The notes beneath the pieces are model-generated. The model was not told where the DNA came from. It made no database searches and saw nothing but the letters and a program-made list of their open reading frames with translations. Both the position numbers and the translations under genes were made by a program. Source: Acidobacteriota bacterium (GTDB taxonomy: Bacteria; Acidobacteriota; Terriglobia; 20CM-2-55-15). From it: 47,598 nt of DNA. The stretch covers positions 1 to 47,598 of the forward strand of contig JAJEEE010000008.1 of NCBI GenBank assembly GCA_022821145.1, written 5' to 3'. This document shows positions 18,515-46,383 of the stretch, one piece after another. Positions within the stretch are counted from its first letter, which is position 1. Each line of letters opens with the position of its first letter.

Positions 18515-18622
18515 GCGCCTGTGATGAAGACCCGGTGGGAGGTTGCGCAGGCCCAGGTGATCGGCCGGGATGCCGCGATCTTTAAGTTACTGACAAGATT
18601 GGCGTATGCCAATTGGACACGA

Positions 18623-18670
18623 GGCGTTCCTCGCAGCTGGTGGACAAAGAGCGAAGCGAGGCGTCAGTCC
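18623..18670 (+). repeat. Intergenic element, copy A (related copy at 46206-46274)
   Basis: Two blocks, GGCGTTCCTCGC (18623-18634) and AGCGAGGCGTCAGTCC (18655-18670), recur exactly, in the same order and orientation, at 46206-46217 and 46259-46274. The stretch between them differs in length (20 and 41 nt). CCTCGC of the first block can pair with GCGAGG of the second. Just upstream, TTGGC-GTAT-GCCAA (18599-18612) forms another small hairpin. The copy lies in the lon-engB gap. Confidence 0.6.
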
Positions 18671-18802
18671 GAAATGGAGTGCACGCGATTGCGAGACACC
18701 ACAGCAGGATGAAACCCAGGCGGCACACGCGGCCGGAAACGCGCGTCGGCAGTTGTGGTACCATGGATGCGTCCGGAACGAGCCGACCGTGCTCAACCTC
18801 CC

Positions 18803-45906: not shown

Positions 45907-46200
45907 GTTGCGTGTCTCCTCTCCGACGGCAGTACAGCACCCAAGAATAGGCAGTTTCAGCACCAGAATCAACGGAAGACGGGGCGCCGCCCGGGCGTTC
46001 CCACGCGGATAGCGCGTTGATGATGGAGAGCTTATTCTCTTCGTTGACGGTGTCGGCCGTTTGCGAGATCTCGTCTTGCTGACGCGGCGGCCCGGAGGCC
46101 GCGGGTACCATGGGGAATGCGGCGACGTTGTGCGTGGCCTCGGTGGCTTGGTATGGCGCTCGGTGTTTCGCTGCGAGCGTGCGGGGCGCTCCTATAAGTC

Positions 46201-46274
46201 GTCGCGGCGTTCCTCGCCGCGACTGGACGCCTCCATGGCGTTGCCATGGAGGCGGCGTAGCGAGGCGTCAGTCC
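46201..46274 (+). repeat. Two-hairpin intergenic element, copy B (related copy at 18623-18670)
   Basis: GTCGCGGCG (46201-46209) pairs perfectly with CGCCGCGAC (46215-46223) around TTCCT. CGCCTCCATGGC (46228-46239) pairs perfectly with GCCATGGAGGCG (46243-46254) around GTT. The shared block GGCGTTCCTCGC (46206-46217) spans the first hairpin, and AGCGAGGCGTCAGTCC (46259-46274) follows the second. Both blocks are identical in copy A, which lacks the second hairpin. Confidence 0.7.
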
Positions 46275-46383
46275 AAGATAACGATCTCTTCAGTTCAGTC
46301 CGCACGACGGCCGCCGACATGGCGCCGTTCCATCTCACGGGCGCCGCGCGGCCCACGGCGCGCGGCCGCCGCGCGGACTGCTG

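Follow-up and report, generated by a model that had tools for sequence, protein, structure and literature searches.

Two sites in a 47,598-nucleotide (nt) stretch of DNA from an Acidobacteriota bacterium (contig JAJEEE010000008.1, positions 1 to 47,598, hereafter referred to as the window) very probably belong to a genus-specific, non-autonomous palindromic repeat of the REP/BIME kind (REPIN-like), the units of which are larger than usual. A previous sequence-only reading of the window had proposed that the two sites represent a mobile, REP/MITE-like element or a small structured RNA. Of the two, our analysis favours the REP/MITE-like element. The inverted pairs, tandem arrays and truncated pieces in which the copies are found, and the lack of a fixed gene context, make a dedicated small RNA the less likely reading. 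The family is well supported as a repeat family. Mobile palindromic repeats between genes are an ordinary class of element, of which this one is an unusually large and modular form. The intergenic DNA of bacteria is shaped by REP-type repeats, and the present family bears on how these spread where no dedicated transposase is obvious. It is a well-populated example from the Acidobacteriota, with two unit types and with both filled and empty sites, and, as its second hairpin changes while pairing is kept, the rules of recognition can be separated from free sequence.

Two copies in the window

Direct inspection of the sequence located both of the shared blocks that had been claimed for the two sites. 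The 12-base block GGCGTTCCTCGC is present at positions 18623 to 18634 and 46206 to 46217, and the 16-base block AGCGAGGCGTCAGTCC follows at 18655 to 18670 and 46259 to 46274, in the same order and on the same strand. With up to three mismatches allowed, the window contains eight matches to GCGGCGTTCCTCGCCGC (2.19 expected) and two matches to the 3′ block (0.14 expected).

The first site (copy A) is a partly decayed solo unit located between two codirectional genes. The covariance model described below matches it on the forward strand at 18604 to 18692, with a score of 63.0 bits, copy A being one of the model's own training rows. At the position of hairpin 1 (18617 to 18641, forward strand; tag GGAC), alignment A1 reveals an intact TTCCT loop within a decayed stem, and the single-strand folding of the copy is no better than that of shuffled sequence (z = 0.06). 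In both the sequence and the alignment, the second hairpin has the minimal form GCGAAGC (18651 to 18657, forward strand), and the conserved 3′ block on the same strand is the shared AGCGAGGCGTCAGTCC.

The second site (copy B) is a decayed inverted pair spanning approximately 46065 to 46291, with its reversed arm partly deleted. The sequence-only reading undersold this copy, as the long-unit alignment indicates that the element reaches left to about 46065. A remnant of an inverted type-B arm, from which its own hairpin 1 has been deleted, occupies 46065 to 46113 on the reverse strand, and the type-A arm yields a full covariance-model match on the forward strand at 46187 to 46296 (59.6 bits, a non-training row). 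The two perfect hairpins previously described here are present in this arm. The first block lies inside a perfect 9-bp hairpin (GTCGCGGCG-TTCCT-CGCCGCGAC, 46201 to 46223), which represents hairpin 1 and is also supported by covariation, and a perfect 12-bp hairpin (CGCCTCCATGGC-GTT-GCCATGGAGGCG, 46228 to 46254) is situated between the blocks and represents the second, exchangeable hairpin, for which a 10-bp stem covaries in 28 copies. The conserved 3′ block together with the terminal motif AGCGAGGCGTCAGTCCAAGATAACGATCTCTTC extends from 46259 to 46291, and is followed by a weakly conserved type-A tail (AGTTCAGTCCGCACGA...) from 46292 to approximately 46340, which is common to about ten other copies; all of these features lie on the forward strand. 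Copy B folds far more stably than shuffled sequence (z = −6.05). In the genome of the one genus-mate covered (G001), a search for the site homologous to copy B gave other repeat copies as its best matches and did not locate that site, and the corresponding search for copy A returned only a 71% partial match (C229) in addition to repeat copies.

A structured repeat with an exchangeable hairpin

Searches of the window's own genome (4.18 Mb in 89 contigs) with copy B and copy A as queries returned 55 matches at E ≤ 0.001 and 44 matches, respectively, and a covariance model (R1), trained on 47 copies whose second hairpin is short, returned at least 149 among the 150 candidates scored. This number supports the earlier view that the similarity of the two sites is not due to chance, and a coincidental likeness of two GC-rich hairpins is refuted by it, even in a GC-rich genome with many hairpin-like stretches. 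The same count goes clearly against the case that the sequence-only reading had named as refuting its proposal, only two copies genome-wide, and R1 returned a further 62 matches in G001. Among nine other genomes of the family, R1 found one marginal match each in two and none in seven, and among 151 genomes of the class there were four other matches only (E values of 2e-4 to 7e-4); these weak matches in four class and two family genomes were taken as near chance level. A pattern scan of named genomes, which may not include the records of the window's own genome, detected the 3′ block solely in the metagenome-assembled genome 'Acidobacteria bacterium isolate p16x33bins.48', which appears to be G001. 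On these searches, the repeat family is genus-specific, with two genomes only, the window's own and G001, carrying it. An Rfam search of the window matched a tRNA alone and no repeat, and, judged by titles and abstracts, none of the open-licence papers returned by a full-text search on REP and Acidobacteria describes the family. About 16 of the 178 contig ends of the assembly lie within approximately 400 nt of a repeat copy, near the start of C45, C49, C30, C37, C80, C82, C84 and C11 and near the end of C65, C58, C74, C27, C34, C13, C78 and C63, and the repeat thus probably causes much of the assembly fragmentation.

One unit is 80–115 bp long and contains two stems: hairpin 1, which bears the tag G(T/G)A(G/C) and a TTCCT loop, is followed by TGGAC, the second hairpin and CGAGGCGTCAGTCCAAGAAAACGATCTCTTC, in this order. 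In 84 aligned copies, the 5′ consensus CCNATNG(T/G)A(G/C) precedes hairpin 1, which has the consensus CGCGGCG-TTCCT-CGCCGCG lengthened by two to three further pairs, which are not the same in the two unit types, and the consensus 3′ of the second hairpin is CGAGGCGTCAGTCC AAGAAAACGATCTCTTC. Type A units bear the tag GTAG, and type B units bear GGAC or GTAC; GTAG or GCAG is present in 41 of the 84 copies and GGAC or GTAC in 36, and two of the tag bases are paired in the structure model. The second hairpin is exchangeable in both size and sequence, ranging from the shortest form, GCGNAGC, through intermediate forms (GGCGGAGCC and GGCGGACGCC) to long stems, such as CCTCCATGGC/GCCATGGAGG, GTCCATGGC/GCCATGGAC, GTCCATTGC/GCAATGGAC and GGCAATTGC/GCAATTGCC. 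With A at the variable position, GCGNAGC is an exceptionally stable DNA mini-hairpin, and the CGA/GAG sequences flanking the minimal form (for example, around 18651 to 18657 in the window) could form tandem G–A pairs. A function as an intrinsic terminator was set aside, as hairpin 1 is not followed by a T-run.

Units may be solitary, arranged head to tail in arrays, or joined as inverted pairs that combine the two unit types. The inverted pair is the long form of the repeat: about 100 bp of spacer separate the type-A arm from a preceding type-B arm, which is reversed and often diverged. With one complete pair as the query, conservation spans approximately 263 bp from GAAGA(A/G)ATC to GATCTCTTC, and weakly conserved tails lie beyond these ends. 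A complete pair folds into one giant hairpin (−86.9 kcal/mol, z = −8.9). The period of the arrays is 255 bp in C30, 227 bp in C31 and about 280–305 bp in C37, C74 and C70. Many of the solitary copies may be remnants of inverted pairs.

To assess the structure, the copies were split into alignments with short (A1) and long (A2) second hairpins; the RNAalifold consensus of a mixed alignment was almost structureless because copies with different second hairpins had been aligned together. In A1, 94.6% of the cells are standard pairs, as compared with 28–43% for slid partners, and 34 cells are doubly changed, as compared with 13.9 in shuffles, although such cell counts are inflated by the shared ancestry of hairpin classes and the independent events are fewer than the cells. 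Several pairs of hairpin 1 swap both bases. In A2 (28 copies), 94.4% of the cells are paired, as compared with at most 54.5% when slid, and the covariation score is 0.245, as compared with 0.077 in shuffles. Within this alignment, the 10-bp stem of the second hairpin is 94.2% paired with four of its ten pairs changed on both sides, and three pairs of hairpin 1 have changes on both sides. Compensatory changes, the lack of which the sequence-only reading had listed as counting against its proposal, are seen in both hairpins, and, judged from the aligned copies, the structure of both hairpins is under selection.

Genomic context and comparison of sister species

All 84 mapped copies lie outside genes predicted by a simple codon-usage gene caller (our own script). 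The intergenic gaps of 52 copies could be classified as codirectional (30), convergent (9) or divergent (13), and 32 copies are unclassed, mostly where the analysed stretch is cut. Where a predicted gene begins or ends within 100 nt of the 3′ end of a unit, its stop codon faces the unit in 27 of 35 cases (two-sided p = 0.002, with members of one pair or array not fully independent).

Orthologous regions of the window's own genome and G001 are 81–99% identical. C87 (L154) of the own genome contains an inverted pair within a segment of about 402 bp that G001 lacks, the flanking sequences being directly joined there (L134, 886/891). Approximately 550 bp beyond this pair, G001 (L134) carries a solo unit and the own genome has short diverged DNA alone, a difference that is probably a polymorphism; at either of these polymorphic sites, deletion of an old copy is possible. 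At the L154/L134 filled/empty site, the flanks are about 10% diverged, too much for the exact ends of the element or any target duplication to be placed. In C74 (L002/L077), three tandem units in the own genome correspond to two in G001, as read from overlapping local alignments. At L022/L116, a unit occupies the same place in both species, with CCTCCATGACGCAGCCATGGAGG as the second hairpin in one and the short GGCGGTAGCC in the other, showing that a unit can acquire a different second hairpin without changing place; the orthologous copies at L110/L115 and L124/L088 are unchanged or nearly so. From this comparison we infer movement, as the differences in site and copy number between the sister species support a mobile repeat. 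Sequences that are adjacent around a repeat cluster in G001 (L094/L126, C233) are split in the own genome between L059 (C70) and L135 (C37), with repeats at each break, suggesting a rearrangement or an assembly break at the repeat.

Relationship to known repeats and candidate mobilisation

The family resembles REP, BIME and REPIN elements (PMC3733652, PMC3116915, PMC2817692) in its high copy number, intergenic location and GC-rich hairpins, in its solo units, inverted pairs and clusters, in its bias to gene 3′ ends and in its confinement to close relatives. RAYT-associated REPs bear an unpaired GTAG or GTGG tag at the 5′ foot of the hairpin, and a GTAG-like tag is found there in about half of the present units. 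It differs from them in its large unit (a REP has 20–40 bp and one stem), in its second hairpin of variable length and sequence together with a fixed 3′ block, and in the tag of about half of the units, which is GGAC or GTAC rather than GTAG. Furthermore, the family behaves like REP/BIME, yet no RAYT gene is flanked by a unit. CGTC-tagged REPs also lack a repeat-flanked transposase gene, and CGTC occurs within the 3′ block here; however, those REPs have one 8–9 bp stem with A–T pairs at its base and mostly form head–head pairs (PMC3733652), whereas in the present family CGTC is part of a longer block that follows two GC-rich stems, and the GTAG-like tags of the pairs point inward. TIRtrons (PMC3733652) and class 3 TnpA-Y1 structures (PMC6006769) are likewise acidobacterial, and comprise repeated structures linked to Y1 transposases, with about 600 copies in Solibacter, for example (PMC3733652, PMC6006769). 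Unlike in these systems, the Y1 protein here has the class 2 Y---NP motif, and its gene is not bordered by copies of the repeat.

A Pfam Y1_Tnp search identified one intact gene in the own genome (C51, encoding the 222-residue protein P0001) and one in G001. P0001 has intact HUH (NHVH) and YVERNP motifs, the latter conforming to the Y---NP pattern of class 2 (PMC6006769). It scores 56.9 bits on the NCBIfam model of REP-associated transposases, below the cut-off of 80, and its sole match in the PDB is TnpA-REP (4er8), a weak one (E = 0.3). No repeat unit was found within about 10 kb of the gene, and the 20 kb around it contained one match with three mismatches (0.66 expected). A classical RAYT–REP system, in which the units are REP sequences mobilised by this transposase, is possible although on balance doubtful, and P0001 is an equally tentative mobiliser. 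The intact motifs, the single copy of the gene in both repeat-bearing genomes, the weak structural match and, in about half of the units, a hairpin with the GTAG tag favour such a system, but the gene lacks a flanking repeat, Y1_Tnp genes are also present in repeat-free genomes of the family, the NCBIfam score is under the cut-off, and P0001 has LWH where the REP-associated subclasses carry WQ (PMC6006769).

Short elements with inverted-repeat ends and insertion polymorphism also include MITEs such as NEMIS, ERIC and RUP, and the inverted pair could be a miniature transposon with long terminal inverted repeats, moved by a DDE cut-and-paste mechanism, the parent insertion sequence of which is lost or unassembled. 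The inverted-repeat ends of the approximately 263-bp pair, the filled site about 400 bp longer than the empty one and a shared weak terminal motif (CAGCGTGGGAAA) are consistent with this explanation. We nevertheless regard it as rather unlikely, as many copies are solo or in head-to-tail arrays, internal hairpins under compensatory selection would not be expected, no clear target duplication is seen between the diverged flanks of the one filled/empty site examined, and no parent element was recognised at the 16 places with the weak terminal motif that were inspected, in a fragmented genome and with uncertain element ends. Less probable still is a structured RNA element of 3′ untranslated regions, which would protect or regulate mRNA ends and would have spread as a repeat while being kept for its RNA function. 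The compensatory changes and the stop codons facing the units agree with it, but ordinary REPs are known for the same bias (PMC3733652), a quarter of the classified copies (13 of 52) lie in divergent gaps, and the inverted and tandem arrangements argue against it.

If the family is a non-autonomous REP/BIME-like repeat, as we prefer, its spread would depend on the folding of one strand, for which the single-stranded template of lagging-strand synthesis is the most likely place. A trans-acting enzyme would recognise the tag with hairpin 1 and the fixed 3′ block, and would cut and re-insert the segment, while the second hairpin would be held as structure only, leaving its sequence free to vary or to be swapped. 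The first candidate for this enzyme would be the one REP-type tyrosine (Y1/HUH) transposase that the genome encodes, an assignment far less certain than that of the repeat family. Also conceivable, although fairly improbable, is a modular mobile repeat in which the mobilising enzyme recognises the fixed outer parts (the tag with hairpin 1 on one side, the 3′ block on the other) and the second hairpin acts as a swappable cassette. Copies would exchange this cassette through gene conversion or template switching, and its shape alone would be maintained; such a system would be REP-like but independent of a flanking RAYT. A 17-bp inverted repeat (AATTTTCCTTGAAAATC / GATTTTCAAGGATAATT; L009:1135–1183) lies a short way downstream of the gene for the tyrosine transposase; it is AT-rich within the GC-rich genome and is also present in the sister species.
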